This document shows positions 4,916-41,627 of a stretch of DNA of 64,000 nucleotides, piece after piece. Source of the DNA: Nitrosomonadales bacterium. Its GTDB lineage: Bacteria; Pseudomonadota; Gammaproteobacteria; Burkholderiales; Gallionellaceae. Numbering within the stretch: the first letter of the stretch is position 1; each line of letters begins with the position of its first letter. The notes beneath the pieces were generated by a model. The model was not told the DNA's origin, searched no databases, and was given only the letters and a program-made list of their open reading frames with translations. The stretch lies in contig JACOUM010000007.1 in NCBI GenBank assembly GCA_016177795.1, positions 1 through 64,000 on the forward strand. Direction: 5' to 3'. The position numbers were made by a program, and so were the translations under genes.

Positions 4916-4964
4916 GGTTGTTTCTCCTTCTTGATCTGTTCCGGATGCGTGAATTATATCGCCA

Positions 4965-5864: not shown

Positions 5865-5895
5865 TTGCATCTCCAAGCTTGAAGCGATTTCACCT

Positions 5896-5990: not shown

Positions 5991-5997
5991 ATAAAAA

Positions 5998-6621: not shown

Positions 6622-6704
6622 TAAATCCTGCTCCTTAACGCTCGAATTGAGAGGCTATACGCCATTGCACAGCCCCTCTCGAAGGCAGGGTTGGCATTCC
6701 CGGA

Positions 6705-7085: not shown

Positions 7086-7154
7086 TGTTCTCCTTGTCAG
7101 AATGGGTTGTCCTGATTTGCGACAGCAACCACCGCAACCCCTTCGGTGATCACA

Positions 7155-9401: not shown

Positions 9402-9551
9402 CGGATACCTCAATAAATCCATTTTCCGGGCACATCGCGGCGTTGCACGGTGCTCGCCCACTGCGCCTATCTATTTGATATGTCTTGCGTGCTGCGCGCC
9501 GTGCGCCGTGCGCTGCACTCCGAAAACCTGAATTTCTGGAGGTATCCATCA

Positions 9552-11381: not shown

Positions 11382-11585
11382 TTTTACTTCACTGCATTAA
11401 GCATAATTCACACCTCAAGTGTCTATAGCCATATCGGGTGAGTCGCGGTATAACCCCGAAGGGTTGAAGGGGCAGAAAATTCATATCTGTCATGTTAGTA
11501 TGCACACGGAAGTGCAATAGCCTGACGCGGCTCGGCTCGCTGAGGGCTCGGATTTACCTCCCCTTTCGTCTAACAAGATTCAGGA

Positions 11586-12833
11586 ATGTTTTTCTTGAGC
11601 GCTACGAATAAAAAAGTGGAGTCCGCAAAGGAACCAGACCGGACCGGTTTTTTCTGGACGCGCATTCCCAACTTCACTCCCCCCGCCAAAGACGGCGGCG
11701 TTGCTGCGTGTGTCGAACAGGAGTTCGCATCTCCCCGTGCAGGCGATCTCAAAACGCTGCTGAACAGATTTCTGGAAACCGCGATCAGCATGGTTCACGC
11801 CGGTGCAGGCGTGATCCGGATCACCCTGCCCGACGAACAGACTTTGCAGATCATCAGTTCCATCGGCTTGTCCGGCGAACAGCTGGAAGCCGAGCGCATC
11901 GCCGAACTGGTCTGCGAGGAATGCGGCAAGGACGCATTCAGGCGCGGCCTGTGCTCCGCCAATATCGAGGATTGCGAGGTCAGGCACAATGGGAACACGC
12001 ATCGACAGTTCCGCTCAGTCATTTCGGTTCCGCTCGAAAGCCGAAATACTCCCGACGCACTGCTTGGCGTCTTCACACTGCTTTTCGATACCCCGCAATC
12101 TTCCTCCGGTCACGCCGCAAGCACGGCGGTCACTTTCGCAGATCTGCTGGGCGCTCTCATCGAACATATCAGATCAAACCGCGAAACCAGGCGCGCCGAA
12201 ATGCTGATGGAACGTCAATCCATTGCCAACGAGATACACGATTCGCTGGCGCAAACGCTGAACTACGCACGGATGAACACCACCCTGCTGACCGATGCGG
12301 TGCGCAACAACAAGGAGGCAATGGCAACCGAATATGCGCGCGACCTTGATGAGGCGCTGGAAATCAGCCAGAAAGCGGTGCGCGCCCTGATTACCGATTT
12401 CCGCAGCGAGATGGATCCCGCCGGCCTGTTGCATGCGCTGCAAACGCTGGTCGAACGTTTCCGCCAGCAGAACAGCATCGTGCTCGATTGCGTCATCCGC
12501 GTCGCCGATCTCGATCTGCCCCTGGAGCATGAAATACAGGCCTACTACATCGTGCACGAAGCGCTCTCCAATATCGCCAAGCATTCCAACGCGAGCCACG
12601 CGCGCCTGATCGTGGATCACCGCGCCGGCTATTACATCTTCACCGTCGAGGACAACGGGACCGGCGGCGACGACCTGACCCCGGTGGAGGGGCATTACGG
12701 GATCGTCATCATGCGCGAGCGTGCACAACGCATCGGCGGCGAAATCAGGGCTGAAAGCGCCAAAGGGTTGGGAACCAGCGTACAATTGTTGTTCCCGGAA
12801 CCGGGAGCGAACTGGAGAACCGTGCATGACTAA
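11586..12833 (+). CDS. NarX-family histidine kinase with GAF-like sensor and Cys cluster
   Basis: A cytoplasmic 415-residue kinase with no membrane segments. A GAF-like sensor (about 55-195) contains four cysteines (Cys110, 113, 123, 130; CEECG then GLCS and EDCEV). A HisKA_3 box follows (NEIHDSLAQTL, His218), then a HATPase domain (HEALSNIAKHSNAS, VEDNGTGG). The cysteine group could hold an Fe-S cluster or act as a thiol switch, as in NreB-like kinases; this is inferred. AGGA abuts the ATG at 11586, so the TTG at 11595 may be the real start. The stop overlaps the response regulator start by eight bases. The pair lies beside sqr and upstream of, but divergent from, the qmo operon. Confidence 0.85.
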   Translation: MFFLSATNKKVESAKEPDRTGFFWTRIPNFTPPAKDGGVAACVEQEFASPRAGDLKTLLNRFLETAISMVHAGAGVIRITLPDEQTLQIISSIGLSGEQLEAERIAELVCEECGKDAFRRGLCSANIEDCEVRHNGNTHRQFRSVISVPLESRNTPDALLGVFTLLFDTPQSSSGHAASTAVTFADLLGALIEHIRSNRETRRAEMLMERQSIANEIHDSLAQTLNYARMNTTLLTDAVRNNKEAMATEYARDLDEALEISQKAVRALITDFRSEMDPAGLLHALQTLVERFRQQNSIVLDCVIRVADLDLPLEHEIQAYYIVHEALSNIAKHSNASHARLIVDHRAGYYIFTVEDNGTGGDDLTPVEGHYGIVIMRERAQRIGGEIRAESAKGLGTSVQLLFPEPGANWRTVHD

Positions 12834-13631: not shown

Positions 13632-14906
13632 ATGGCACATGTAGTCATCATGGGAGCGGGAATCGGCGGCTTGCCGGCGGCTTATGAAATGCGGGACAAA
13701 CTGGACAAAAGCCACAGGGTCACCGTCATCTCGGACAGCGAGAATTTTCATTTCACGCCATCCAATCCCTGGGTGGGCGTGAAATGGCGCGAGCGCAAGC
13801 AGATCGAGTTCCCGGCACGCACCTATCTGGAGCGCAAGGGTATCGACTTTATCTCCACCGGCGTGAAACGCGTCCATCCCGACCGGAACCAGCTCGAACT
13901 CAACGATGGCCAGACCGTCGCCTATGATTATCTGGTAATCGCCACCGGCCCGAAACTCGCCTTCGAGGAAATAGAGGGGCTTGGCCCGCACGGCGGTCAT
14001 ACCTATTCTGTCTGCCATGTCGATCACGCGATGAAGTCGCATGATGAGTGGGAGCATTTTTGCGAGAACCCCGGCCCCATCGTGGTCGGTGCGGTGCAGG
14101 GCGCCTCCTGTTTCGGCCCCGCCTACGAATATGCCTTCATCATGGATACCGACCTGCGCAAACGCAAAATACGCAACAAGGTACCGATGACCTTCGTCAC
14201 CTCCGAACCGTACATCGGCCACCTTGGTCTGGGCGGCGTGGGCGATTCCAAGGGCATTATCGAATCCGCCATGCGCGACAAACACATCAAGTGGATCTGC
14301 AATGCCAAGGTCACCAAGGTTGAAGCGGGCAAGATGTACGTCACCGAACACGACGACATGGGCGCGGAAAAGAAACAACATGAACTGCCCTTCAACTACA
14401 GCATGATGCTGCCTGCTTTCAAGGGTATCGACGCGGTATTCGGCATCGAAGGCCTGACCCAGGCACGCGGTTTCATCCTGGTGGACAAACACCAGCGCAA
14501 CCCCAAATACAAGAATATTTTCGCGGTCGGTGTATGCGTGGCAATCCCGCCGGTAGAGGCAACCCCGATACCGACCGGCACACCAAAGACCGGCTACATG
14601 ATCGAATCCATGGTGGCCGCCACCGTATACAACATCAATGCCGATCTCACTGACATGCCCGCTGACAAGGAAGCCACCTGGAACGCGGTCTGTCTGGCCG
14701 ACTTCGGCGAGACCGGCGTAGCCTTCGTGGCAATACCGCAGATCCCGCCGCGCAATGTGAACTGGTTTTCCGAAGGCAAATGGGTGCATCTTGCCAAAAT
14801 CGCCTTCGAGAAATACTTCATCCGCAAGATGAAGAAGGGCACTTCGGAGCCCTTCTACGAAAGCAGCATCATGAAGATGCTGGGCATTGATAAACTGAAA
14901 AGTTAA
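13632..14906 (+). CDS. sqr: Sulfide:quinone oxidoreductase, type I
   Basis: A 424-residue flavoprotein that oxidises sulfide to polysulfide/sulfur at the membrane and reduces quinone. It has the N-terminal FAD fold (VVIMGAGIGGLPAAYEM) and closely resembles the Acidithiobacillus ferrooxidans enzyme. It has all three redox cysteines: Cys128 (SVCHVDHA), Cys160 (GASCFGPAYEY) and Cys354 (WNAVCLADFG). The quinone region TPIPTGTPKTGYMIESM and the C-terminal amphipathic segment VHLAKIAFEKYFIRKMKKG are present. GGAGG lies six bases upstream of the ATG. It follows the two-component pair and ends at a strong terminator. Confidence 0.95.
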   Translation: MAHVVIMGAGIGGLPAAYEMRDKLDKSHRVTVISDSENFHFTPSNPWVGVKWRERKQIEFPARTYLERKGIDFISTGVKRVHPDRNQLELNDGQTVAYDYLVIATGPKLAFEEIEGLGPHGGHTYSVCHVDHAMKSHDEWEHFCENPGPIVVGAVQGASCFGPAYEYAFIMDTDLRKRKIRNKVPMTFVTSEPYIGHLGLGGVGDSKGIIESAMRDKHIKWICNAKVTKVEAGKMYVTEHDDMGAEKKQHELPFNYSMMLPAFKGIDAVFGIEGLTQARGFILVDKHQRNPKYKNIFAVGVCVAIPPVEATPIPTGTPKTGYMIESMVAATVYNINADLTDMPADKEATWNAVCLADFGETGVAFVAIPQIPPRNVNWFSEGKWVHLAKIAFEKYFIRKMKKGTSEPFYESSIMKMLGIDKLKS

Positions 14907-14925
14907 CCGCAGGAAAACCGGAACC

Positions 14926-14956
14926 AAGCCGCTGCCGCAACGCAGCGGCTTTTTTT
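14926..14956 (+). terminator. Rho-independent terminator after sqr
   Basis: A perfect 10-bp stem AAGCCGCTGC/GCAGCGGCTT with a six-base loop is followed by a run of T. It starts 20 bases after the sqr stop codon. The T run is only on the plus strand, so it serves sqr and not the convergent aldolase gene. Confidence 0.9.
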
Positions 14957-30200: not shown

Positions 30201-30650
30201 ATGGCGCATCCGCTGGGGGTGACCACCGAAATCAACCTGCATACGCCGGCACTGCTGCCGGACGACTACTGCGGCGACATCCACCAGCGCCTGGTGATCT
30301 ATAAGCGCCTCGCCAACTGCGCCTCGCTGGAAGAACTTGAAGAAATGCAGCAGGAACTCATCGACCGCTTCGGCCTGTTGCCCGGGCCGGCGCAGGCGCT
30401 ATTCGACTGTCACCACCTGCGCATCCTCGCCAAGCCGCTCGGCATCAGCAAACTGGATGCGTCCGGCGAAGCTATCATGATTCAGTTTGTGCCGAACCCG
30501 CCGATCGATCCGATGAAAATCATCACGCTCATTCAGAGCAAACGGCATATCAAAATGGCCGGACAGGACAAGCTGCGGATTGAGTTGAAATACGGAGATT
30601 TGAAGCAGCGGGTGTTGGCGGTCGTGCAGTTTTTCAAGGAGTTAAGTTAA
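27210..30650 (+). CDS. mfd: Transcription-repair coupling factor
   Basis: A protein of about 1146 residues that removes stalled RNA polymerase and recruits UvrA. In order: the UvrB-like N-terminal part (HLLPDWETLPYDHFSPHQDL); the RNA-polymerase interaction domain (ELKPGDPVVHEQHGIARYQG); the RecG-like helicase with Walker A LICGDVGFGKTEVALRAAF, DEEH and the motif-VI region LHQLRGRVGRSHHQAYAYLL; and the TRCF domain. I chose GTG 27210 because a -10 box lies upstream. A REP-like element of about 70 bases is inserted in frame near residue 335. The 3' end overlaps the convergent cytochrome b gene by nine bases. Confidence 0.95.
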   Translation: MLFSSKQSRPRYTQLHGSSDALALAQFAASHTPLVVIAANALEAQRLLEEIPFFNPSLRVHLLPDWETLPYDHFSPHQDLISERLATLHHIRTHACDVVVVPITTALYPLPPLSYLAAYTFFLKRGDKLDLNGLREQMTLAGYTHVQQVLTPGEYCVRGGLIDLFAMGSTLPYRIDLFDDEIETIATFDVDTQRTLYPVPEIRLLPAREFPLDEKGQANFRQRFRERFEGDPSRSRIYKDVSKGIAPNGIEYYLPLFFEQTATLFDYLPDNATLCLHHDVDSAIRQFTQDAASRYNLLRGDPQRPLLEPHELFLGAEQFFIRVKNFARLDILPSATGGGGAGNEGEDNSRNLTLCPTAPLPDIAVNRRADIPTQAFQHFLHDYRGRVLLLADSLGRREIMAEYLQGYGLNPALCDDYAGFLAAKEKFMLSVAAVGNGFILTEENLAVVTESELYAQQPRSRASRAARKSNVEGMLRDLSELKPGDPVVHEQHGIARYQGLMNLDLGEGENEFLLLEYAGNDKLYVPVSQLHVISRYSGGAPETAPLHKLGSGAWDKAKRRAMQQVRDTAAELLNLYAQRATRKGHAFKLNHHDYEAFAAGFDFEETPDQAGAIEAVILDLQSGKPMDRLICGDVGFGKTEVALRAAFVAVMDGKQVAVLVPTTLLTEQHFQNFSTRFADFPVKIAELSRFRSAKESSQALKDMAEGRLDIIIGTHKLIQKDVKFHNLGLVIIDEEHRFGVQQKERLKALRAEVDVLTLTATPIPRTLAMSLEGLRDFSVIATAPQRRLSIKTFVSNYSQGVIREAVLRELKRGGQVYFLHNEVATIANMAEKLTALLPEARIRVAHGQMNERDLEAVMRDFTHQRFNVLLCSTIIETGIDVSSANTIIINRADRFGLAQLHQLRGRVGRSHHQAYAYLLVDSMDGLAAQAKKRLEAIQAMEQLGSGFYLAMHDLEIRGAGEVLGESQSGEMQEIGFSLYNDMLSAAITSLRQGKEPDMAHPLGVTTEINLHTPALLPDDYCGDIHQRLVIYKRLANCASLEELEEMQQELIDRFGLLPGPAQALFDCHHLRILAKPLGISKLDASGEAIMIQFVPNPPIDPMKIITLIQSKRHIKMAGQDKLRIELKYGDLKQRVLAVVQFFKELS
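28203..28275. repeat. REP-like palindromic element inside mfd
   Basis: CTCCCC and GGGGAG arms are followed by a perfect 9-bp inverted repeat GAGGGTGAG/CTCACCCTC (28239-28247 and 28263-28271). The sequence resembles the intergenic elements near 5900 and 4490. It adds about 24 residues rich in Gly, Ser and Asn (SATGGGGAGNEGEDNSRN) without breaking the frame. Confidence 0.7.
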
Positions 30651-32177
30651 CCTGCCGTTACGCAGGCTGGCGCGGAACGATTCCAGCTCGGAAGCCAATC
30701 CGCTGAAGTCGGCGGACGACGCCCAGTATTGCCGGATCCGTCCCAGTTCGACACGGCCGCGCAGGCGCGGCTCCCGCTCTCTTGCCAGACGCTGTGCTGT
30801 CCATACTCCCCCCATGCGATGGTAACAGTCGCTCTCGCGGCAGCCGGTAATGAATACGCCATCGACCTGACGCTCATGCAGCGCATATTCGATAAAGGAG
30901 GGCGGCAACATGGCGGTGCAGGGCAGGCTCATGACGGCCACGCCTGCACTGCGCAATTTCCCGATATCTGCCGCGTTATCGCAGCCGAAAACCATGACCC
31001 GCACATCGCCCTGCAGCTTTGCCAGATCGGCTGTCATTGCGGCGCGCAGCCCGTGCATCGGCAGCGAGGGCATTTCGATTCCGCTTACGTAATCGGCTTC
31101 GCTCCTGAACGGGGTCGAGGAGGGACACGCCCCCGCACAGATGCCGCAACTGACACAGCGATCCGGGGTGACCACTGCTTCTTCCGCAAAGTGCAGGCCG
31201 TCGCTGCGCGGCCGCATCACCACCGCCTCGTAGGGGCAGTCGGCGACGCAACGCCGGCAGCCGTTGCAGTTTTTGAGGCTGACTTCGGCAATGGGTATCT
31301 GCCTGAACCGGTGTGGCAGCCACGGCAATACACCGAGCAGCAGGGTAATTCCGCCGACCAGTGCCCATACCTGGCCAGCCGACCATTTATCCAGCAGCGG
31401 GCTGACAAACAGATAAAACCAGTCGACCCCGACGCTGCCGGGTTCAATGCCCAAGTCTGCCGGTCCCTGGCTCAGCGCCGGGCTGACCAGTGACAGGACC
31501 AGCATTGCCAGCAGCATCCCCAGCGCGAGCCCGCGCTTCGGATTAACCACGGGATAGCTGATGCGCATGATGTGCACCCAGAACAAAAACAGGATGAATA
31601 ATGGAACGGTCACATGAAAGAACGACATCAATGTGAAGAAACGATTATCCAGCGTCTCGGCGGAAATAAAATAACCCGCCATCGGCACGCTGAATATCGG
31701 CAGCCAGTCAAACCATTCGATGATGGTTACCGCAGAATATTGAGCCAGCTTGTCCCACACCATCCAGTAGCCGTTGATGCCGGCGGCGAGTAACAGCCAG
31801 ATCAGCGGTACGCCGGTAAACCACGCAAACCAGCGCGCGCCGCGATAGCGTCCCAGAATGAATTCGCGCAACAGGTGCAGCAGCATCACCACCACCAGCG
31901 CATCGGAAGCATAGCGGTGCAGGCTGCGCATGATGCCGCCCAGGTACCGTTGTTCGTGAGTGAGGTATTCCACCGAGGCGAAGGCATCCTCCACCCCGGT
32001 ATCATAGAAGACGTAAATATAAAGGCCGCTGACGGTAACGACCCAGAAGAAAAAGAACCCCAGCGCGCCCAGATGATAGAAGGGGTTGAGGTCATTGCCA
32101 AATATCTTGTTCAGCGCCCCCTCAAACCTGAGCAGCGTCCTGCGTGCGAGTGATTCGGTGGAACTGGAAGTAGTCAA
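30642..32177 (-). CDS. Cytochrome b fused to a two-[4Fe-4S] ferredoxin and an MvhD-like domain
   Basis: A 511-residue membrane fusion. Residues 1-290 are a cytochrome b/b6-type domain with both haem histidine pairs 14 residues apart (His87/His101 and His188/His202). Residues 300-355 bind two [4Fe-4S] clusters (Cys304, 307, 310, 314; Cys341, 344, 347, 351). Residues 390-500 resemble MvhD/FlpD, the domain that passes electrons to HdrA-type proteins and is also seen at the end of QmoB (VFGCDNAAD, ITGCRESDCYHR). The start is TTG with GAGG seven bases upstream. It could carry electrons between quinol and an Hdr/Qmo-like partner; this is inferred. It lies beside a heme-copper-oxidase homologue and a second cytochrome b fusion. 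Confidence 0.85.
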   Translation of the reverse strand: MTTSSSTESLARRTLLRFEGALNKIFGNDLNPFYHLGALGFFFFWVVTVSGLYIYVFYDTGVEDAFASVEYLTHEQRYLGGIMRSLHRYASDALVVVMLLHLLREFILGRYRGARWFAWFTGVPLIWLLLAAGINGYWMVWDKLAQYSAVTIIEWFDWLPIFSVPMAGYFISAETLDNRFFTLMSFFHVTVPLFILFLFWVHIMRISYPVVNPKRGLALGMLLAMLVLSLVSPALSQGPADLGIEPGSVGVDWFYLFVSPLLDKWSAGQVWALVGGITLLLGVLPWLPHRFRQIPIAEVSLKNCNGCRRCVADCPYEAVVMRPRSDGLHFAEEAVVTPDRCVSCGICAGACPSSTPFRSEADYVSGIEMPSLPMHGLRAAMTADLAKLQGDVRVMVFGCDNAADIGKLRSAGVAVMSLPCTAMLPPSFIEYALHERQVDGVFITGCRESDCYHRMGGVWTAQRLAREREPRLRGRVELGRIRQYWASSADFSGLASELESFRASLRNGRLT

Positions 32178-32288
32178 TTCGAATCCTCATGCCGCCCGCA
32201 AACCGCCCGGAAATAACCGGTTAATTTCATCGCACCCAAGGTGCGACGGCATAATATAATAATTGGGCGATAACACATTGAATGGGGA

Positions 32289-32483
32289 ATGAGATTGGAA
32301 ATCATTGTTTACACGCTGATGGGTATCGGCCTTTATTTCGTGTCCGACTGGATACTCGACCGCATAGAAGTTTCACGCGGAGAGCGTTTTAAAAACCGCA
32401 ATATCATTTTCTTTTTGATCATTCTGACGCTGGCATTTCTTTCATTCAGCCTCACCAAATTTCTTCTGCTCGCCCCCGGCTAA
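32289..32483 (+). CDS. Small two-helix membrane protein
   Basis: A hydrophobic product of 62-64 residues with two predicted membrane helices (IIVYTLMGIGLYFVSDWIL and IIFFLIILTLAFLSFSLTKF) and a charged loop (RIEVSRGERFKNRN). GGGGA abuts the ATG at 32289, so the in-frame TTG at 32295 six bases after it may be the true start. It is on the opposite strand to the flanking cytochrome genes. The function is unknown. Clean codon use and a typical membrane design make it likely real. Confidence 0.65.
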   Translation: MRLEIIVYTLMGIGLYFVSDWILDRIEVSRGERFKNRNIIFFLIILTLAFLSFSLTKFLLLAPG

Positions 32484-32541
32484 ACTGGAAAACCATTGGT
32501 TTGACAGGTTTGATTCGAAGCCGGAATCCCGGAAACAGACG

Positions 32542-33954
32542 CTACGCCGGGCGACGCATGGCCTTGAACACCACGACCAGGAACATGATCCCGCCAATAA
32601 CGGCGATCAACCCGCCCAGCCCCATCAGTCCCATGCCGGCAGTCTGAGCAAAACCGTGCAGTTCCTGCGCGGCTCCGGCAACCTTGCGCTGCACGCCATA
32701 CCCGCCGGACCACATCAGGCCGAAGATATGCATCAGTTGTCCCGCAGCATAGACATAGGGCATCGGCGCGGCCCATTTCAGATCAGGCTGGCGATAACCG
32801 AGTTGTGGCAGCAGATGCAGGGTCAGTCCCATGAAGGCCAGACTGATCGCCCCGCCGGTTCCGTGATAATGCGCGGTAATGATCGTGTTGCTGTCGCCAA
32901 TCATCAAACTTATCCCGCCACCGATGGCGAACAGAACGATTGACGAAACCAGCGCCGCGCGCTGCGGGTTCGTCTGTGCAGTTCCTGTGGTCGTCAGGCA
33001 TCCATAAAGAACCGCCAGCCCCAATGGCACCGGTGCGAATGCCCCGCCAGCCTTCATCAGCTGGGTAAATTGCTCCATGTAGGCGCCCATATCGCCGGCA
33101 AAGTACAGATAAATAACCGGGGTAACGAATACCGGCAGCAATCCCAGCATGAGGATGGCAGAGGCTACCCGCGGCGTCAGCGGAACAGTTGCGCCGCAAC
33201 CACTGGCCAGCCACAGCCAGCCGGCCAGCATCAGCAGCGCATAGGTGAATTGCAGCACATGGCCGCCCCCCCAGAACAGCAGGTCGTAGTATTGCGTGCT
33301 GTCAAAGACGTCCGGGATGATGTCATACGACCAGCCGAAGGCCATCAGGGCAAACACCGCAGAAATGGAAGCGGCATAAAAACCGATGCGTATCGAACCT
33401 TCGCCACCCCGCCACAGGTCGGCGGAAGGTACCGCGACCAGGCTGCGCAATACCAGCACGGCCACGCCAGTGGAAAAAACAATCAGGCCGGTAAAAAAGA
33501 AGGTGCTTTGGATAACCGGCACATAATTGCTCATCAATGGTTTGCCGGCAGCGATGAAGGGAGACAAGGCAATCATGGTGGCACCCACGGCAGCCAGCAC
33601 CAGTGCCAGCCAGCCGACCCCGATGAATCTGGAGGATGAATTCAGACTCCACAATACACCGGCAAATGCCATGAACCACAGCAGCACCGACAGGTCCACA
33701 TGCACGACCAGCGCGGTATGGAAAAAATCTACCCAGGGGAAAATATCCTGGACATAAGGGGTGCGCGACAGCACCAGGAGAATGGCAAACAACCCGGCGC
33801 CCACCAGCGATGCAATACCCAACCACAACCAGCCGGAAGCCAGCCTGCGGCCATCTTCCGCTGGCATGGAAAGCACAAATTCATTCTTTTGTTTATCTTC
33901 TGCAGCCACGTCCCTGCCCTCCCCAATATCTGCTTGTTGATGTATCAGACTCAC
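32542..33954 (-). CDS. Heme-copper oxidase subunit I homologue lacking the CuB histidine pair (NO-reductase-like?)
   Basis: A 470-residue protein with about 12 membrane helices and the heme-copper oxidase subunit I plan. Haem ligands are seen as His85 (VVHVDLSV) and the His362/His364 pair (TAHYHGTGGA). Helix VI has GGGHVLQF (His232), with Phe where oxidases have the cross-linked Tyr. The two adjacent CuB histidines of helix VII are absent; the matching stretch reads IYLYFAGDMGAYMEQF. An oxygen-reducing site is therefore unlikely. It may be a NO reductase-like or otherwise altered enzyme, or an electron-transfer subunit. GTG 33954 has AGGGA six bases upstream. The start is coupled to the preceding 175-residue gene. 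Confidence 0.75.
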   Translation of the reverse strand: MSLIHQQADIGEGRDVAAEDKQKNEFVLSMPAEDGRRLASGWLWLGIASLVGAGLFAILLVLSRTPYVQDIFPWVDFFHTALVVHVDLSVLLWFMAFAGVLWSLNSSSRFIGVGWLALVLAAVGATMIALSPFIAAGKPLMSNYVPVIQSTFFFTGLIVFSTGVAVLVLRSLVAVPSADLWRGGEGSIRIGFYAASISAVFALMAFGWSYDIIPDVFDSTQYYDLLFWGGGHVLQFTYALLMLAGWLWLASGCGATVPLTPRVASAILMLGLLPVFVTPVIYLYFAGDMGAYMEQFTQLMKAGGAFAPVPLGLAVLYGCLTTTGTAQTNPQRAALVSSIVLFAIGGGISLMIGDSNTIITAHYHGTGGAISLAFMGLTLHLLPQLGYRQPDLKWAAPMPYVYAAGQLMHIFGLMWSGGYGVQRKVAGAAQELHGFAQTAGMGLMGLGGLIAVIGGIMFLVVVFKAMRRPA

Positions 33955-33957
33955 CCG

Positions 33958-34485
33958 TTATCCCTGGGTTGTATTCTTGTTTTTGAAAATAAACCCGCCG
34001 GTCGCTGACTTGAAATCAATCACCATGATACGCCCCGGAACCAGATGAACTGTTTCTTCATGCATGAAGTTGAATTCTTCGCCAATGTGATCTTTCAGGC
34101 GCGCCTTCAAGGTATGAACACCCGCCTTCACCGGGATACGCCGGTAAATATTGGAAGTGCCGCTGTGTGCAAATCCGGTTGGTGGCAACACCACGTGGTA
34201 GAGTTGCTTGCCATCCATTTCCAGTTCGACCACCACATCGGCACGCTCGCGGCTCGGGCAAATTGTCGTCACCTTGCGCTGGTACATCGGCAGCTTGGCA
34301 AGTTCTTCCGGTGTGCGCTCCCGGCACGCCTCCTTAAGCTGGCCGGCATGCCCAAAACTCAGCTTGATCAGGGTTTCATCAGGTTGCAGATAGGTGTAGG
34401 TCGGCCAGGTAGAGAAATAGCCGATCACCCCGAAGAACAGCGCGTAAAACAACCCTTGGCCCATATATTGCAGTGGCTTAATCAT
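33958..34485 (-). CDS. Membrane-anchored protein of unknown function in the cytochrome b cluster
   Basis: A 175-residue protein. It has one N-terminal membrane segment (GLFYALFFGVIGYFST) and a periplasmic, beta-rich domain with two Cys (KEACRERT, TICPSRERADV). The end is hydrophilic. It overlaps the cytochrome b-reductase gene by eight bases (ATGATTAA) and is followed after three bases by the oxidase homologue, so all three are made together. It resembles the size and topology of an oxidase subunit II, but no CuA motif is present. No family is recognised. Confidence 0.7.
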   Translation of the reverse strand: MIKPLQYMGQGLFYALFFGVIGYFSTWPTYTYLQPDETLIKLSFGHAGQLKEACRERTPEELAKLPMYQRKVTTICPSRERADVVVELEMDGKQLYHVVLPPTGFAHSGTSNIYRRIPVKAGVHTLKARLKDHIGEEFNFMHEETVHLVPGRIMVIDFKSATGGFIFKNKNTTQG

Positions 34486-36415
34486 GTTTCATCCCCTCGG
34501 AGGATACTGATGCTTGCGCAACCGGAGGGTTGTAGCGAGCAACCGTAAATGCGTCAGAAAAATACTGGTTTTCCGGCAATCCTCTGGCCATGAATGGCGC
34601 ACGACTCGCCTCGACCATGCCCGGTGAACCGCAGGCATATACCTGATAACCGTCCAGCCTTTCATAATCCTGCAGGATGGCCTCATGAACCAGCCCGGTT
34701 CTGCCCTGCCAGCCATACTCCGGCTTCGGCTCTGACAGCACCGGGATGAATTTGAAATTGTCATGTTCCCGCTGCCATTTTCCAGGCAAATCCGAGTACA
34801 GGTCGACGGGTGACTTGGCGCCCCAGTACAGCGTCATGGAACGATTCAACCCAACCTCGAAGGCATGCTCCACCATGCCCTTGATGGCACCGAAACCACA
34901 CCCTCCCGACATAAAAATAATCGGCTTGTCATCTTCTTCGCGCAGGGAAAAACTGCCGTAAGGCCCTTCCACTTGCAGCACGTCGCCCTCTTTCATTCCG
35001 TTAAATACATGGCCGGTGAATTTGCCGCCTCCCACCAGACGAATGTGCAGCTGCAAATGTTCCGTTTCATGTGGTGGATTGGCAATAGAATAACTGCGTT
35101 TGGTGCCATCATCCAGTTGCACGGCGACATATTGGCCGGCCACAAAATTCATGCGTTCGCCACCCTCCGGCAGCAATTCAAGCAACATCACATCGGGCGC
35201 CGCCTGTTCCATTTTTTGCACGCGGAACTGCATAATCTTGATCGGGAATTGCCTCGACTTGTCGACCTCGTGACATTCTATGTCCAGATCGGATAACGGT
35301 TTGGCACAACAGAACAGCGCCTTGCCCTCCGCTTTTTCTGCTTCGGTAAGCACCCCTTCCTGGTAAGTGCCGTAATCAACCGTGCCTTTCAGTATCCTGC
35401 CTTTGCAAACGCCGCAGGCGCCGTCACGGCATACATAGGGCAGATTCAATCCCTGGCGCAACCCGGCTTCGAGTACGGTTTCACCCTCTCTGGCAATCAA
35501 CCTGTGCCCGCAGGGCACGGTGTTGATTTCATATTCCCCCTTGCCCTTTCTGCTCCGTCCCAGAAACGGCAACAACAAAACGAAAGCAGTAAAACCACCC
35601 GATAGTGCCCATAACTTGCCCGCCCCCCAGGAATAGAGCAAGGGAAATGTCCACAAATAGAACCAGTCCAGGTTCAGAACAAACGGGACGGAATTCAGGT
35701 CGGAATGCCCCTGGCTCAATGCCGGATGAATCAGTGCAAGCATGATCATAGCCAGCACCAGTCCAATTGAAAGCGCCCTTGGTGGAGATGTCCTGGCCTC
35801 GGGAACGCGCTGGGTATGAATCCAGATCAATCCGAAAATGCCCAGCGGAACGCCGATGTGGACCAATGAAAGCAGCGAGAAAAAGCGATCGCTGACACTG
35901 CCGGACTCCAGAAAATTGCGTGCCAGCGGAGCGCTGAAAACCGGCAGGAAATCCAGCCATTCCGCGCTTGCCACGGCCAGGAATTGTGCCAGGCTATCCC
36001 AGACCAGCCAGTAACCGTTTATGCCGGCGATGTAGATCAGCCACAACAACGCGACACCCGTAGCCCATGAAAACCACCGGAAGTTCCGGTATCGGTCAAA
36101 GACAAAGTTGCGCACCATGTGCAATACGCCAAACAGAATCATCCCGTCAGAAGCGTAACGGTGCAGGCTGCGCATGATGCCGGCCAGGTACCATTGTTCG
36201 TTAGTGATGTATTCCACCGAGCCGAACGCATCTTCCACCCCGGTATCGTAAAAAATGTAGATGTAAAAGCCGCTGACAACGACAATCCAGAACATCAAAT
36301 AGGCAATCGCCCCCAGAGAATAAAACGGGTTCAGTACTGTTCCGAAAATACGATTGAGGGCGCTTTCCAGACGCAAAAAAATGGCTTGGCCAAGCCGTTG
36401 TGAGAGCTTAATCAT
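34478..36415 (-). CDS. Cytochrome b fused to a [2Fe-2S] ferredoxin and a FAD/NAD(P) reductase
   Basis: A 645-residue fusion. Residues 1-285 are cytochrome b-type membrane helices with His85/His99 and His186/His200. Residues 295-385 are a plant-type [2Fe-2S] ferredoxin (Cys329, 334, 337 and a CC pair at 369-370). Residues 395-625 are a ferredoxin-NAD(P) reductase-like module with the FAD motif RSYSIANPP and nucleotide-binding GGCGFGAIKGM. This would allow electrons to pass between NAD(P)H and membrane b haems, in either direction. It shares about half its length with the other cytochrome b fusion nearby, so the two arose by duplication and different C-terminal fusions. AGGGA precedes the ATG. 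Confidence 0.87.
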   Translation of the reverse strand: MIKLSQRLGQAIFLRLESALNRIFGTVLNPFYSLGAIAYLMFWIVVVSGFYIYIFYDTGVEDAFGSVEYITNEQWYLAGIMRSLHRYASDGMILFGVLHMVRNFVFDRYRNFRWFSWATGVALLWLIYIAGINGYWLVWDSLAQFLAVASAEWLDFLPVFSAPLARNFLESGSVSDRFFSLLSLVHIGVPLGIFGLIWIHTQRVPEARTSPPRALSIGLVLAMIMLALIHPALSQGHSDLNSVPFVLNLDWFYLWTFPLLYSWGAGKLWALSGGFTAFVLLLPFLGRSRKGKGEYEINTVPCGHRLIAREGETVLEAGLRQGLNLPYVCRDGACGVCKGRILKGTVDYGTYQEGVLTEAEKAEGKALFCCAKPLSDLDIECHEVDKSRQFPIKIMQFRVQKMEQAAPDVMLLELLPEGGERMNFVAGQYVAVQLDDGTKRSYSIANPPHETEHLQLHIRLVGGGKFTGHVFNGMKEGDVLQVEGPYGSFSLREEDDKPIIFMSGGCGFGAIKGMVEHAFEVGLNRSMTLYWGAKSPVDLYSDLPGKWQREHDNFKFIPVLSEPKPEYGWQGRTGLVHEAILQDYERLDGYQVYACGSPGMVEASRAPFMARGLPENQYFSDAFTVARYNPPVAQASVSSEGMKHD

Positions 36416-36461
36416 GGGTCCCTTTGGAAATAACTTCAGTCAACGGACTGATACCAAACCG

Positions 36462-37313
36462 CTAAAGAGTGTCAGTGCTGTTTATGCCATTATGTTTCGG
36501 ATAAGTCCGCTTCGGACTGCGACGGTACTCATGCACAATCCACCAGGTAATGAGCAATGAGATAAAAATACCCCAACCGATTGCGTAGAATATACTGTAA
36601 TTTACTTCGTACTTTCCTGTGGTTGGGTCGTAATCCGTGCAAAATAGCCGCACCCTGTTCGAAAGCCCTTCAAGCCCCGGCGCCGCCGCCTGAACGTTGT
36701 AAATCATATCCTTCAGCGGCTCGAGCAGCGTCTTGTTGCCAAATTCATCCCCATAAATCTGGCGGTAAACCTTGCCTTCCGCGTCAACAAAGGTTGTTTG
36801 CGTTATATGGTTAAAGCCGCCCTCGTCGGTTGGATAAAAGACAAACCCCAAGTCACTGCTCAGCTTCCTGATTGTTTCAGGGTCAGAACTGACAAATTCC
36901 CAGTTTGGCAGGTCGATGCCCATGCGTTTGGCAAAATCATCCATCGCGTCCGGCGTGTCATTTTCCGTATCGAAACCAACCGTCAACACACCAAAACTGT
37001 CCGCCCCCAGCGCGTCCTGGGAAAACTTGAGCGCGCTCAAGCTGCGGGTTGTGGTAGCGCAGATGAAGGGGCAATGCGTATAAATCATGCTGATAACCAG
37101 CGGCTTCCCCCGGTAATCGGAAAGGCGCACCGTGCGGCCGCTTCTGTCAAGGAATGTGTAGTCACCAAGCCTGTTGCCCACCGCAGCCTGGCTTATTCTC
37201 AGCACCTCCCTTTCATCAAAAACTTGAGGTGCTGGCACCTCCGGCTGCGCCAAGGAAGGCAATGCAGTGAAAACCAAGGCTGCAAAACTCAGCGGTAACA
37301 AATAATGACGCAT
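36462..37313 (-). CDS. SCO1/SenC-family copper chaperone
   Basis: A 283-residue thioredoxin-fold protein. It has an N-terminal signal/anchor, the copper motif YTHCPFIC (CxxxC), a downstream His (GGFNHITQTTFVD) and an unusual extra C-terminal membrane helix (IFYAIGWGIFISLLITWWIV). Sco proteins insert copper into the CuA centre of subunit II. ATG 37313 has AGGGAAG upstream. It starts the run sco, cytochrome b-reductase, 175-residue protein, oxidase homologue. The NorS-like CuA subunit is upstream, beyond ctaB and a terminator. In Nitrosomonas a senC gene also accompanies norSY. Confidence 0.88.
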   Translation of the reverse strand: MRHYLLPLSFAALVFTALPSLAQPEVPAPQVFDEREVLRISQAAVGNRLGDYTFLDRSGRTVRLSDYRGKPLVISMIYTHCPFICATTTRSLSALKFSQDALGADSFGVLTVGFDTENDTPDAMDDFAKRMGIDLPNWEFVSSDPETIRKLSSDLGFVFYPTDEGGFNHITQTTFVDAEGKVYRQIYGDEFGNKTLLEPLKDMIYNVQAAAPGLEGLSNRVRLFCTDYDPTTGKYEVNYSIFYAIGWGIFISLLITWWIVHEYRRSPKRTYPKHNGINSTDTL

Positions 37314-37415
37314 GATTCGCACTTCCCTTAAAAATACCCGACTATTTTAATATGACATATCGAAAACGCAAGCTAAATTATACTTAGCTAATATACTTTT
37401 TTGAGGGGGCAAAAT

Positions 37416-37468: not shown

Positions 37469-38326
37469 TCAGGCGCCGAAATTCACTTCCAGCATCAACG
37501 CAATCATTAACACGCTGAACTGCACCAGCGATGCGACAAAATTGGCCATTGCCGTCTGTTTTGTCGGATTGCACAGCAGTTGTACGCTTTTAACCAGGAA
37601 GTAAGCTCCTCCCAGCATGGCTCCGGTAAGATAAATCCAGCCTAAACCGTAAAATACCGGCAACAGGGAAACCAGCACCAGAAGAATGGTGTGCCCCAGA
37701 ATAATGCGTGCTGCTTTCTTGTCGCCTTTCACCACAGGCAGCATGGGCACTCCCGCCGCCGCATATTGATCGCGAATGACAATTGCCAGGCTCCAGAAAT
37801 GCGGGGGCGTCCACAAGAACAACACCAATGCCAGCAAGCCCGGGAGCGGACCAAATGCAGGATCGACTGCCGCCGCACCCGCCAGCACCGCAAAACTTCC
37901 CGCCAGTCCGCCAAATACGATATTCAGCCAAGTACGCCGTTTCAGCCAAGCCGTATACACAATCGCATAGGTAAACGCGCCGAGGAAAATGTTCAACGCC
38001 GTCATCGCATTGAATGCGAACGCGGCAGATATGACTGCAAGCGCGAGCATTAGCCCGATTATCACCAGCCACTTGCGGCTGTGCTGGAAAAAACCGTTTA
38101 CAAAAGGCCGATTCTGGGTACGCGCCATTTTTGCGTCGATGTCGCGTTCGAAATACTGGTTAAAGGCCCCTGCGGCCGCCGAGGCCACCATAACGCTCAG
38201 CGACAGCACCAGAATTTGCAGGCTCGTCAATGCCTGCCCCGGAGTAATTGCCATGCCACCCAGCGCAGCCAGCGTAATCACCACCCCTATGCGTAACTTG
38301 AAGAGATTAATAAATTGACTGACCAT
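37469..38326 (-). CDS. ctaB: Protoheme IX farnesyltransferase (heme O synthase)
   Basis: A 285-residue UbiA-family prenyltransferase with about nine membrane helices. The first Asp-rich motif is in NQYFERDIDAKMARTQNRP, and TPPHFWSLAIVIRDQYAAAG is typical of heme O synthase. It farnesylates haem b to haem o for heme-copper enzymes. I chose ATG 38326; an open 40-residue extension has no family resemblance. It lies downstream of the NorY-like gene, so a haem O-type cofactor in a nearby oxidase or NOR is suggested but not shown. Confidence 0.93.
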   Translation of the reverse strand: MVSQFINLFKLRIGVVITLAALGGMAITPGQALTSLQILVLSLSVMVASAAAGAFNQYFERDIDAKMARTQNRPFVNGFFQHSRKWLVIIGLMLALAVISAAFAFNAMTALNIFLGAFTYAIVYTAWLKRRTWLNIVFGGLAGSFAVLAGAAAVDPAFGPLPGLLALVLFLWTPPHFWSLAIVIRDQYAAAGVPMLPVVKGDKKAARIILGHTILLVLVSLLPVFYGLGWIYLTGAMLGGAYFLVKSVQLLCNPTKQTAMANFVASLVQFSVLMIALMLEVNFGA

Positions 38327-38559
38327 AGTCCCGGTATCCGTAGTTATTCCTTTTTCGTCATCGAGAAAGGACTGGTTAGTTTTTCTGGATTTCTTGCTGC
38401 CGAATACTTCTAACCTGAGCCGTGCCGGTATTGCCACCCGCCACAATCAGCCGCACTGCCAAGCTTAGGTTAGAGGTCTCCCCCCTAGCAACTGAATTTC
38501 AGTTTCCTGCAAGGAATCAGGGGAAGGATGCCGCAGCATCCCCCCGTCATCTTATTGCT

Positions 38560-40266
38560 TTAAGATAAGCCCCATACCGTAGACAGGTACTTGAAGTTCA
38601 CGAAGTAGTACAGCACGAGCGTCACGAACAGGATCATAGCCAACACAAAGGTACCCGGCGCTTCCATGCCCCACACACCGATGTGCTTCTTCCCTGTCCT
38701 CTCGGCCACAACATCGGCATCTTCCACTTTCGGCCAGGGTGCGGAATCCTCCGCAATACGCTCACCGGTAAAAATGGATGCCAGCACGACCGCAATGAAC
38801 ATGATCGCACCGACCGCCATGACCACACCGAATATTTCACCGATATCCATCAAACCCTTGGCAATTTCCGGATATTCATAAGCCAATGGTTGACCGGCGA
38901 AGGTAATGTCCGCGTGACGACGTTGCACACCCAAGGTGCCTGCACCCATCAGGGCAATCGAGAAAACCCAGGCGCCGAGACTGAAGATGTACGGTTGCAA
39001 TTTCGCCACTCCGGTCAGCACGATCTTGCGCTGGAATACCACCGGAATCAGATAATAAGTCACCGCCATGAATGCCATCGTGGTACCAGCCACCAGCGTG
39101 CCATGGAAATGGCCCGGCAGATATGCGGTATTGTGGATAATCATGTTGATTTGTTCCACACTCATTACCACGCCGGAAATACCGCCGATGAAGCCGAAAC
39201 CGACCAGCGACAGAAACATACCGGAGAAAACCGGATTCCCCCAGGGCGCCTTGCGCAGCCAGGTAAACAAGCCGGTATCCAGCCCCTTCCTGCGTTGAGC
39301 AACCTCAATCGAGCCGGGAACAGTCAAGCCGTGAATCATGCTGGCCAATACGGCAAGGTAGATCATGTAGCTGGTGTTGAGGATCTTCCATGAAGAAGTC
39401 AGACCCGGATCGGACAACAGGTGATGCGCAGAACCCAGTTGCAGGAACAGGATATACAGCAGGAATGCGCCACGGCTCACCTTCTCGGACATCGGTTTGG
39501 CGCCAAATACCAGCGAAGCGATGAGATACCAGATGGTGATGTGGGTCGCCACGTTGATTTGCTGCGAAGAGTGACCGAAACCCCACCAGATAACCCGGTA
39601 CATCATCGGATCTATATGGCTGATCAGCCCGATCGACCATAAGAAAGTAGGGATCAGGATCAGCGCGCCGGAAACGATGGTGAAAACGGCAATCACGGTT
39701 GCCACAACGCCGCCAAACACCACCAGCGGGAGCGACCCGGTATAGGTTTTTTCCCGCTTGGCCACCACCAGCGTGCCGAGAAACACAAAACAGCCGATCA
39801 GGGCACCGACGGCAAACAGGATCAAACCCAGGTAAAAATGCGGGGCTGCCTGCAACGGCGGATAGGAGGTCATCATCACGCTGGAATTGCCTTGCAACAC
39901 GGCCACTGCAACCATGGCGGCACCGATCAGCATGAGCCAGAACTGCGCCCATGCAAAGCGCGGTGTCGCTAGGCGGCTACCCAGTATATGCGCACCAAGA
40001 AAATACAATGCGGCCATCTCAAAGAAAATGATCCACACCGCCAGGTTGACCAGACCATGCGCGGTCAGCGCCATGTAAAATAATTCCGGGCTAAGCAATT
40101 GCACACTCGGCATCCGCGTTAGCGCCACGCCGAGACCAAACAATCCGCCAACCAGCAAAAATACTACTGCAGCGAACGCGTTCCACTTAACCAGTGTGTT
40201 AGCCGTTCTGTGAATCTTGAGGCCGGAAACCGGGTCAACACGAAAATCAGACATTGTCGTCGCCAT
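38560..40266 (-). CDS. Heme-copper subunit I, predicted sNOR-type nitric oxide reductase (NorY-like)
   Basis: A 568-residue protein with about 12-14 helices. All six metal-binding histidines are present: His70 (low-spin haem), His232, His281/His282 (AHHLLSDPG) and His386/His388 (PGHFHGT). The helix VI motif is GHSSQQINV, so the Tyr that is cross-linked in oxygen reductases is Gln236. Loss of that Tyr is a mark of NO reductases. With a CuA subunit II just upstream and a Sco gene close by, it resembles the NorSY (sNOR) enzyme of Nitrosomonas. It may be annotated elsewhere as a cbb3-type oxidase subunit I. The gene starts six bases after norS. Confidence 0.82.
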   Translation of the reverse strand: MATTMSDFRVDPVSGLKIHRTANTLVKWNAFAAVVFLLVGGLFGLGVALTRMPSVQLLSPELFYMALTAHGLVNLAVWIIFFEMAALYFLGAHILGSRLATPRFAWAQFWLMLIGAAMVAVAVLQGNSSVMMTSYPPLQAAPHFYLGLILFAVGALIGCFVFLGTLVVAKREKTYTGSLPLVVFGGVVATVIAVFTIVSGALILIPTFLWSIGLISHIDPMMYRVIWWGFGHSSQQINVATHITIWYLIASLVFGAKPMSEKVSRGAFLLYILFLQLGSAHHLLSDPGLTSSWKILNTSYMIYLAVLASMIHGLTVPGSIEVAQRRKGLDTGLFTWLRKAPWGNPVFSGMFLSLVGFGFIGGISGVVMSVEQINMIIHNTAYLPGHFHGTLVAGTTMAFMAVTYYLIPVVFQRKIVLTGVAKLQPYIFSLGAWVFSIALMGAGTLGVQRRHADITFAGQPLAYEYPEIAKGLMDIGEIFGVVMAVGAIMFIAVVLASIFTGERIAEDSAPWPKVEDADVVAERTGKKHIGVWGMEAPGTFVLAMILFVTLVLYYFVNFKYLSTVWGLS

Positions 40267-40272: not shown

Positions 40273-40830
40273 CTACTCCTTTACGTAAATTCTGCCCAGC
40301 ATCGAATGATGCCCGATGCCGCCGGCGCCACCGCAGTATTCGCCACATGCGATGGCAAAAGTGCCGCTTTTATTGGGTGTTATGGTCGTAACCTGTTCAT
40401 AGCCGGGGTAAACCTGAAAATTGATGTTTTCCGGCAATAACGAAAACCCATGCCCCACGTCATAGGAAGAGATATGCAAGCGATATTTTTCCCCTTTTTT
40501 CAACTCGAGGATGGGGCGATATTGCCATTGCATCGCAGCCAGATAGACATCGCTGCCGGGCGGTGGAGCCACCACATCTTCGCCAGTCGCATCATCCTTG
40601 CGGATAGCGTATTTGGCCGAAAAATCATCCACTTTTTTGGCATACTCTTCTATAGTGGTTCTGTAAGTTTCGTTACTCATGTTTTGCGGCCCGGCGAAGT
40701 GCCAGCCGATCATCCAGACAAACATGAAAATACACCATGAAAATGCGAGCACAATCCACACCAGCTCGCTACGTTCGATGGGTTCACGCCACCAGTCCGG
40801 ATTTGTCGGGGGGGTATAAGAAGTTCCCAT
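40273..40830 (-). CDS. Cytochrome c oxidase subunit II-like protein with CuA site (NorS-like)
   Basis: A 185-residue periplasmic cupredoxin anchored by one N-terminal helix (SELVWIVLAFSWCIFMFVWM). CuA ligands are His127 (DVGHGFS), Cys162 and Cys166 (CGEYC), His174 and Met177. Between the second Cys and the His there are seven residues (GGAGGIG) instead of the usual three, a Gly-rich insertion. It accepts electrons from cytochrome c or another donor and passes them to the NorY-like subunit encoded next. A good Shine-Dalgarno (GGGAG) precedes the ATG. Confidence 0.87.
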   Translation of the reverse strand: MGTSYTPPTNPDWWREPIERSELVWIVLAFSWCIFMFVWMIGWHFAGPQNMSNETYRTTIEEYAKKVDDFSAKYAIRKDDATGEDVVAPPPGSDVYLAAMQWQYRPILELKKGEKYRLHISSYDVGHGFSLLPENINFQVYPGYEQVTTITPNKSGTFAIACGEYCGGAGGIGHHSMLGRIYVKE

Positions 40831-40870: not shown

Positions 40871-41026
40871 TTACGGAGCCGGCGGCACGTTAATTATGTC
40901 CCACAAGCCCCATAACGTATAAAGCACCAGGGGTACCAACACAGCCAACGCCAACATCAGCCACTGGTTATCCAATGCTTTTTGCATGAAATGAGGGTTT
41001 ACACCATTTGGGTTCGACTCTGACAT
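40871..41026 (-). CDS. Tiny single-helix membrane protein upstream of norS-like gene
   Basis: A 51-residue product with one membrane helix (NQWLMLALAVLVPLVLYTLW) after a polar N-terminus containing FMQKALD. AGGGAGG lies shortly upstream of the ATG, a strong ribosome-binding site. It resembles the 47-residue product at 41174-41317 (FMQKALDNQ compared with FVQQILHNN), so the two are probable paralogues. They are likely small subunits or assembly factors of the NorSY-like enzyme. Such short genes are easily missed. Confidence 0.7.
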   Translation of the reverse strand: MSESNPNGVNPHFMQKALDNQWLMLALAVLVPLVLYTLWGLWDIINVPPAP

Positions 41027-41173: not shown

Positions 41174-41317
41174 TTAATGCCGGAGCAGCATGAAAAGACC
41201 GATACCAAAATAGGCCGCAGCACTGATACCTATCAGGACGGTCAATAGCAACATATTGTTGTGCAGTATTTGCTGCACGAAAGAAACTGGCGTATTCCCA
41301 GTCTTGGATGATTCCAT
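41174..41317 (-). CDS. Tiny single-helix membrane protein, first gene of the norSY-like operon
   Basis: A 47-residue product with a polar start containing KTGNTPVSFVQQILHN, then one membrane helix (MLLLTVLIGISAAAYFGIGL). GGGAGG is positioned well before the ATG at 41317. It lies about 70 bases downstream of a predicted promoter and about 150 bases before the 51-residue gene. The similarity of their cores suggests duplication. No database family is recognised. Confidence 0.65.
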   Translation of the reverse strand: MESSKTGNTPVSFVQQILHNNMLLLTVLIGISAAAYFGIGLFMLLRH

Positions 41318-41627
41318 TGGATAGCCTCCCGATGCGTTATTATTTGTTTGCATTTAATGCAATTGTCCCCTGCGACAATTTGACGCGTTCCGGAATTCTG
41401 TTCCGACTGACAAAACCTGTCAAGTATAAATTGCAAGTATTTTAATCGGGTATTTTTGGACGCGCTCTCGCTTGGCCACCTTCACCCATAGTTAACCAAT
41501 CAAAAACCCAATAAATTCATTGTGCAGTGAGCGTCGATAGCTGTATTTTCCGGAAATACAGATGCAGTTTTCCAGCCCGTTGCGCTTCTTGACTGACACG
41601 AAATGACGCTGTGCGCAACAACTTCGG
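41318..41627. promoter_or_regulatory. Promoter region of the norSY-like operon with a 20-bp palindrome
   Basis: On the minus strand TTGACA (41423-41418) and CAGAAT (41400-41395) are 17 bases apart. This predicts transcription from about 41388. A perfect inverted repeat AATTGTC-N6-GACAATT (41361-41380) lies just downstream, and TGACA-N5-TGTCA (41408-41422) covers the -35 box. Both could bind regulators. The remainder, to the dapB stop, shows no gene. Confidence 0.5.

Follow-up and report, generated by a model that had tools for sequence, protein, structure and literature searches.

A 64,000-nucleotide stretch of DNA from a Nitrosomonadales bacterium of the Gallionellaceae (assembly GCA_016177795.1, contig JACOUM010000007.1, positions 1 to 64,000; hereafter the window) carries genes for a predicted nitric oxide (NO) reductase of the eNOR type together with two diheme cytochromes b fused to different redox modules. 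One cytochrome b continues into two [4Fe-4S] clusters and a FlpD-type [2Fe-2S] domain (b-FlpD), the other into a [2Fe-2S] ferredoxin and a FAD/NAD(P) reductase (b-FNR). We propose that the cluster combines an eNOR-type NO reductase with a dedicated transmembrane conduit, formed by cytochrome b and a 175-residue membrane-anchored protein (P175), that would feed electrons from NAD(P)H or other low-potential donors to the eNOR side. We assign this proposal a probability of about 0.42.

In order of transcription on the minus strand, the cluster encodes a 59-residue and a 51-residue protein, eNOR subunits II and I, CyoE, Sco, b-FNR, P175 and an eNOR-like heme-copper homologue (HCOx); the plus-strand gene sm64 and then b-FlpD follow. 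An earlier reading of the same DNA (the original prediction) had described the two cytochromes b, P175, the heme-copper homologue and Sco as a possible stand-alone module joining quinones to NAD(P)H and to an Hdr/Qmo-like partner. All the parts that it named, the two fusions included, lie where it placed them, as open reading frames without interruption on the minus strand, but it overlooked both eNOR subunits, CyoE, two small membrane proteins and sm64. It holds up in that the genes form a conserved redox module whose cytoplasmic part comes in two versions, one of which is a NAD(P)H reductase. The module does not stand alone, however, but goes with eNOR. The genome itself is incomplete (1.65 Mb, 74% complete).

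The original prediction knew of no described complex with this layout. Likewise, we found no description of the b and P175 genes together with eNOR in the open-licence literature, a scope that leaves out the primary eNOR papers (Hemp and Gennis) and the gene-cluster figure of PMC6431628. One annotated record with these genes labels them 'cytochrome b N-terminal domain-containing protein' and 'hypothetical protein'.

The upstream heme-copper enzyme

The predicted eNOR subunit I (positions 38560 to 40266, minus strand) is a B-family heme-copper protein whose closest solved structures are B-type/ba3 oxidases. Its Gln236, within a GHSSQQ motif, aligns with the cross-linked Tyr of the ba3 enzyme, and 96 of 97 relatives (93 of the 94 that are distinct) keep GHxxQQ. 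The CuB triad and the heme histidines (His70, 232, 281, 282, 386 and 388) are present in 25 of 26 aligned rows, the remaining row being gapped. Subunit II (40273 to 40830, minus strand) has an N-terminal membrane anchor and a CuA cupredoxin domain that matches COX2 (just below the cut-off), CoxB and NosZ; its ligands, CGEYC...GHHSM, were read by eye.

These features indicate that the enzyme is eNOR-like and a predicted NO reductase. We also considered an sNOR. This identity is ruled out because the window protein has Gln at the signature position, and Table A4 of PMC8756737 gives Gln as the mark of eNOR and Asn as that of sNOR. PMC8879329 describes the ba3-a1 subtype as a cytochrome c-dependent NO reductase that was renamed eNOR, and among six narGH-bearing genomes of the Gallionellaceae PMC10734462 reports eNOR in four. 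The window cluster shares with this ba3-a1 enzyme the Gln in subunit I, the full CuB triad and the CuA subunit II. Its operon also holds a SCO gene, as PMC6431628 describes for Magnetospirilli. In contrast, the b-FlpD, b-FNR and P175 genes are not part of eNOR as described in the accessible parts of that paper and others.

Elsewhere, the eNOR/b cluster of locus L036 is followed, a few kb downstream, by an NnrS gene (2358 to 3605), which agrees with an NO-related role. On a Defluviimonas plasmid (L236), the P175 gene of the eNOR cluster is directly followed by a gene of the hemerythrin family (14523 to 14927).

Distribution and gene neighborhoods

The cytochrome b genes were followed through samples of the class (369 genomes), the phylum (398) and the order (150), each including the window genome; many of the sampled genomes are incomplete. 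Within the class, eNOR subunit I occurs in 33 genomes, b-FlpD in 34 and both in 32 (Fisher p ~1e-42, a statistic that, like the other co-occurrence statistics, ignores shared ancestry). The only genome with eNOR and no b-FlpD (G264) has a contig that ends right after eNOR I. In the phylum sample b-FlpD is present in 34 genomes, and eNOR was found in 27 of 32 b-FlpD genomes from other classes. It was also found in a further genome of the window's order (G850) and in five class genomes picked since eNOR was not beside b-FlpD or lay beyond the retrieved stretch (6/6), giving 33 of 38 b-FlpD genomes in total. Of the 38, 21 have a completeness of 90% or more and a contamination of 5% or less, and all 21 have eNOR. 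Fifteen stretches from the phylum sample were compared: ten hold eNOR together with b-FlpD and P175, and in eight of those ten HCOx is missing; in the other five, two of which lie on contigs shorter than 6 kb, no eNOR was seen.

The full-length b-FNR fusion has 15 representatives among the 150 genomes of the order. Related loci, all located via the b-FNR protein, are the best 80 of at least 570 confirmed relatives. At least three of these repeat loci already obtained from the genome samples (L105 and L153, L108 and L160, L113 and L185), hence the distinct counts given in this text. Within the best 80, eNOR I is present in 61, b-FlpD in 57, P175 in 74 and HCOx in 67; for the 42 with long flanks the numbers are 39, 38, 40 and 40. 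The exact gene order of the window recurs in 14 of the best 80, and the layout, for which the original prediction had asked about conservation, is not a product of chance. The closest relatives form 22 loci at 68–94% identity, mostly metagenome-assembled genomes labelled Gallionella, Gallionellales, Ferrigenium or Nitrosomonadales, with the top relative (94%) labelled Polaromonas; the other 58 show 48–59% identity. Two loci (L132 and L175) belong to 'Candidatus Ferrigenium' assemblies, which we take to come from nitrate-reducing, Fe(II)-oxidizing cultures (partly covered in PMC10734462).

Beta/Gamma loci repeatedly show the order eNOR2-eNOR1-(CyoE)-Sco-b-P175, which is also found elsewhere in the phylum and on an Alphaproteobacterial plasmid. 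Alternative arrangements are b-FNR-P175-b-FlpD-(P175)-HCOx and a b-FNR gene divergent from the eNOR operon, and in L167, L197 and L230 b-FNR has no other cluster genes nearby. The last of these (6586 to 8583, genome G082, outside the window's order) lies far from the eNOR cluster of its genome. The common core is eNOR, Sco, b-FlpD and P175, with CyoE, HCOx and b-FNR as additions. To judge from this pattern, b-FlpD and P175 look like a dedicated eNOR partner.

The two fused cytochromes b

Both fusions, b-FlpD (30642 to 32177) and b-FNR (34478 to 36415, both minus strand), are intact open reading frames with the two different C-terminal modules that the original prediction had described. Pfam assigns Cytochrome_B, Fer4 and FlpD to the former, and Cytochrome_B, Fer2, FAD_binding_6 and NAD_binding_1 to the latter. 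Relatives found by BLAST at 85% or more query coverage were aligned, 85 proteins for b-FlpD (83 of them distinct) and 94 for b-FNR (91 distinct), each set with the window protein. Sequencing frame errors, which would have undone the original prediction, are ruled out as the origin of the fusions by the uninterrupted reading frames and by domain order and cofactor residues conserved throughout these proteins.

Each b domain matches PF00033 and carries two His pairs with 13 residues between the paired His (His85/99 and His186/200 in b-FNR, His87/101 and His188/202 in b-FlpD), and all four occur in every aligned row (94/94 and 85/85). The eight [4Fe-4S] Cys and the four FlpD Cys (Cys399/420/446/451) of b-FlpD are found in 84 or 85 of 85 proteins, and the [2Fe-2S] Cys329/334/337/369 of b-FNR in 94 of 94. 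By eye, each b domain appears to contain about six transmembrane helices, which would place both termini in the cytoplasm.

Two further regions are conserved: GYxx[P/V]WD (94/94 b-FNR, 70/85 b-FlpD) and, at the PEWY-type position, a DWFY-like sequence (93/94 and 78/85) whose leading Pro is mostly absent. In the cytochrome b6f and bc1 complexes such regions line the Qo site. The likeness to bc1/b6f includes the two heme-His pairs with 13-residue spacing and the GYxxPWD region, and the DWFY region may be a PEWY-like counterpart; the cluster has neither a Rieske protein nor cytochrome c1/f and adds a cytoplasmic redox module. Ten cluster proteins of the window were examined, and none has a Rieske or CxxCH heme motif; a loose Rieske-motif scan of the loci returned 32 open reading frames, none labelled as a cluster gene.

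The best NCBIfam match of both b domains is ExtP (98 bits for b-FlpD, 96.5 for b-FNR), and ExtQ matches the part that follows. However, these scores are far under the curated cut-offs (290 and 150), and ExtP and ExtQ are b-type cytochromes without such a fusion that belong to another operon, for selenite/tellurite. The b-FlpD module resembles the C-terminal part of HdrA2, with two [4Fe-4S] clusters and FlpD (MvhD), but is carried on a cytochrome b and has no HdrA flavin domain. For the reductase part of b-FNR the nearest models are BenC, AntC and MmoC, reductases of a type that normally oxidizes NAD(P)H.

A tree of 46 b domains, which leaves out L230 and the best 80 b-FNR loci, joins every FNR-type row (15) and one truncated row into a single group (support 100/98). 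Separate from this group is a third fusion type in L036, in which the b domain is followed by CysJ-like flavodoxin, FAD and NAD domains. Provided that the L036 assembly is right, cytochrome b acquired NAD(P)H-reductase modules at least twice. The same locus encodes the flavodoxin-type protein (3672 to 6212) and a Fer4-FlpD protein (10650 to 12461) with nearly identical b parts, a similarity that may come from recent copying, gene conversion or an assembly error. Tandem pairs of b-FlpD genes, with P175 and HCOx, occur elsewhere in the phylum (L219, L220 and L221). Such tandem genes would agree with two b proteins pairing up as they do in bc complexes.

The b6-like build and the conserved Qo-like motifs invite another explanation, in which NO reduction drives quinol bifurcation and eNOR takes the place of the Rieske/cytochrome c branch. 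Quinol would be oxidized at a periplasmic Qo-like site; one electron would pass to the high-potential eNOR (CuA), and the other, passing heme bP and then heme bN, would yield NAD(P)H in b-FNR, or reduced ferredoxin or a different low-potential carrier in b-FlpD. The tight coupling to one high-potential enzyme, seen in the co-occurrence with eNOR, speaks for this scheme. Fe-oxidizing Gallionellaceae, which need low-potential reductant, keep both b forms. A proposed precedent is given by the anammox Rieske/b complexes (Kuste4569-4574 and Kustd1480-1485), which according to PMC12954380 also pair a b6-like cytochrome b and a subunit IV-like part with a cytoplasmic NAD(P) reductase and have N-oxide chemistry as a sink. 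In contrast to those complexes, the cluster studied here has no Rieske protein or multiheme cytochrome c, its reductase is fused to cytochrome b and its neighbor is eNOR. The missing Rieske and CxxCH motifs stand against bifurcation, as do the lack of a link between the b-FNR form and autotrophy and the usual outward direction, away from NAD(P)H, of the closest reductase models. We consider this explanation unlikely, although by no means far-fetched. A single supercomplex of eNOR and b/P175, with CuA replacing Rieske in NO-driven, quinone-based bifurcation and with interchangeable cytoplasmic modules, is in our view rather improbable.

P175

The gene for P175 (33958 to 34485, minus strand) begins with an 8-base overlap with the b-FNR stop. 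The structure model (pLDDT 94) consists of one helix, residues 2–26, which we read as transmembrane, and a beta-sandwich. Cys54, Cys76 and His124 are invariant in 54 aligned proteins. The same 54 proteins match no Pfam family above the cut-off and show scattered weak matches only, and a fold search against PDB gave none at E<=0.001, the best (1.3e-3) being among weak matches to several beta-sandwich domains.

P175 is probably a periplasmic subunit of cytochrome b, because it is fused to b-FlpD in a single open reading frame in three loci (L051 and L054, of the same genus, and L180), occurs in every one of 28 b-FlpD loci from two of the Beta/Gamma locus sets and overlaps the b gene in the window. 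It commonly lies 3' of the b gene. Locus L054 (4522 to 9958) holds a CRP-type regulator, the fused b-FlpD-P175, a COX15/CtaA heme A synthase and HCOx consecutively; the eNOR of this genome is on that contig too, some 16 kb away from b-FlpD.

An assembly function deserves mention because Sco is commonly the gene next to cytochrome b in eNOR clusters, often with CyoE. The b/P175 proteins would then bring reducing power to the periplasm and reduce Cu(II), or thiols of Sco or P175, for the CuA and CuB sites of eNOR. The cupric reductase CcoG, which serves the cbb3 oxidase, is a model for such a role. In layout the b-FlpD-P175 fusions resemble CcoG/FixG, a membrane protein beside a heme-copper enzyme that has transmembrane helices, two [4Fe-4S] clusters and a periplasmic Ig-like end. 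The two invariant Cys of P175 would also suit this function, and eukaryotic metal reductases likewise use b hemes with an FNR-type reductase. However, the core here is a cytochrome b, and P175 appears unrelated to FixG_C: that family is absent from the matches of the 54 P175 proteins at E<=0.1, and the profile comparison (hhalign) gave a probability of 1.4%. In addition, a FixG_C protein is already encoded in 16 of 16 cluster genomes tested, and the Qo-like region is not required for copper reduction. We hold an assembly reductase to be rather improbable.

Electron flow through the proposed conduit

In the conduit that we favor, the redox modules would be cytoplasmic and P175 would lie on the periplasmic side. 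Electrons would pass through b-FNR from NAD(P)H to FAD, [2Fe-2S], heme bN and heme bP and so reach the periplasmic side, and through b-FlpD from a ferredoxin-like or docking dehydrogenase donor via FlpD and the two [4Fe-4S] clusters to the hemes. At the periplasmic end they would be delivered to the quinone pool at the Qo-like site or to eNOR itself, and this supply would support the reduction of NO to N2O. Where one cluster encodes two b proteins, these would pair as a heterodimer or as alternative dimers, so that two different donors would be served.

The outward direction, from cytoplasm to periplasmic side, is favored because the recruited reductase modules, in two unrelated forms, are of kinds that oxidize NAD(P)H. 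A simple reversal driven by the proton-motive force is unlikely because inward-moving electrons would oppose the membrane potential. The production of NAD(P)H would need bifurcation, which the Qo-like region would allow and against which the missing Rieske gene in the cluster argues.

Several points weigh against an outward conduit to eNOR. The direction is read from domain kinship only, outward flow would waste membrane potential and the Qo-like region would be superfluous for a purely outward reductase. P175 has no recognizable redox-cofactor motif, sm64 on the opposite strand splits b-FlpD from the operon in the window and the flavodoxin-type fusion is known from one genome only. Two class genomes, G215 and G259, carry b-FlpD without a detected eNOR. 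In the plasmid collection b-FlpD is found only in the Defluviimonas record, and eNOR-like clusters of a Thermus (L237) and a Thermomicrobium (L238) plasmid have no b module beside them, the chromosomes not having been searched. Because these two plasmid clusters lack b genes nearby, eNOR chemistry may be independent of the b module as such. Finally, PMC8879329, citing another paper, reports cytochrome c as the electron donor of eNOR, so eNOR need not depend on a b complex.

The eNOR-like genes of both these plasmids carry GHGAQQ, and that of L237 lies near a nitrite reductase, an Rrf2 regulator and a DUF542 gene.

Autotrophy and Hdr/Qmo-like partners

The stand-alone module of the original prediction would serve reverse electron transfer between quinones, NAD(P)H and an Hdr/Qmo-like partner. 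The window genome does possess an Hdr/Qmo-like gene set and three FlpD genes, a separate one among them. At 4965 to 10838 the window encodes a CCG-domain protein, an Fer4 protein, a 768-residue HdrA-FlpD protein and a 428-residue FAD protein, which we take to be HdrB-like, HdrC-like, QmoB-like and QmoA-like, respectively. However, an Hdr/Qmo-like partner does not appear to be obligatory, because in 20 of 32 b-FlpD genomes the fused FlpD is the only FlpD found; HdrA proteins without FlpD were not searched for.

General reverse electron transfer for CO2 fixation is likewise not borne out, as RuBisCO is not enriched with b-FNR. Form I/II-like matches (PF00016, better than 1e-75, which excludes form IV-like matches at 1e-40 to 1e-65) were obtained for 9 of the 18 genomes with b-FNR and for 21 of the 32 with b-FlpD only, compared with 22 of 50 further genomes from the same order. 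The 18 include G342, whose fusion is cut off where its contig stops and which is assigned by its place in the tree. Genomes count as 'b-FlpD only' where an FNR form had not turned up, b-FNR not having been searched in the class sample, and the 50 background genomes were taken irrespective of b-FlpD. With these results and the near one-to-one link to eNOR, a stand-alone module is very improbable.

HCOx

The protein that we call HCOx (32542 to 33954, minus strand) matches Pfam COX1 at 35.7 bits (cut-off 34.8), and its model has a heme-copper fold that matches heme-copper oxidases. In a global alignment its profile aligns over the full length with eNOR I (24% identity, E 1.6e-40), and against the window eNOR I alone the comparison gave a probability of 99.4 (E 1.7e-21); the same profile had no match among PDB sequences at E<=0.01.

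The original prediction had called this homologue altered, and indeed the HH pair of the CuB site is gone. The heme ligands His85, His362 and His364 are kept in 40 of 40 family members, but of the CuB triad only His232 is (also 40/40), and the helix VII region has no conserved HH pair. In the global alignment the eNOR pair falls on Ile281-Tyr282 of HCOx and in the other on a gap, so its exact place is uncertain. Tyr282 occurs in 40 of 40 family rows and 43 of 52 in a wider set; at position 292, where the window has Tyr, 33 of these 52 have His. It is unlikely that HCOx has a normal CuB site, and the protein might be an accessory eNOR paralogue without one. In addition, His409 is invariant in the 40 proteins and is a possible extra ligand.

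HCOx does not behave as a fixed part of the module. It is present in 46 of the 369 class genomes, 27 of which also have eNOR; 19 of the 46 lack eNOR, and 6 of 33 eNOR genomes lack HCOx. When eNOR is absent, it occurs beside an aa3 oxidase or heme A/O synthesis genes, and it may serve heme-copper enzymes more widely. In L048 and L060, HCOx orthologues lie near aa3-oxidase, CyoE and CtaA genes with no eNOR nearby.

Other genes of the cluster

Between eNOR I and b-FNR lie the genes for the heme o synthase CyoE/CtaB (37469 to 38446, minus strand; TIGR01473, 270 bits against a cut-off of 210.3) and the Sco/SenC copper chaperone (36462 to 37322, minus strand; PF02630, SCO1-SenC). Directly upstream of eNOR subunit II is a 51-residue protein with one transmembrane helix (40871 to 41026, minus strand). 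Relatives detected by tblastn (E<=1) occur in 75 of 138 loci, and in the four compared by coordinates (L033, L044, L105 and L111) they also lie directly upstream of eNOR2. The 59-residue, single-transmembrane protein (41174 to 41353, minus strand) is a putative small eNOR-associated subunit with relatives, by the same search, in 20 of 138 loci, mostly Gallionellaceae-like.

The 64-residue membrane protein sm64 (32289 to 32483, plus strand) is conserved beside the cluster, with relatives in 32 of the best 80 b-FNR loci. Elsewhere, including other parts of the phylum, they are found near eNOR or b-FlpD on either strand. We also looked for an FNR/DNR-type regulator box. The 641 bases upstream of the operon contain two sites with two mismatches, which is no clear signal, and the whole window contains 6 sites with one mismatch and 81 with two.

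Implications

Although eNOR is widely distributed, it is little studied, and its electron supply or assembly bears on N2O production. The b complex tracks eNOR almost one to one, yet has swappable NAD(P)H or Fe-S/FlpD modules, which provides a testable lead. If the supercomplex were real, it would represent NO-driven, quinone-based electron bifurcation. If the proposed partnership is correct, it would couple NO reduction to the pool of NAD(P)H and ferredoxin in the cytoplasm, or else reveal a new way of assembling a CuA enzyme.

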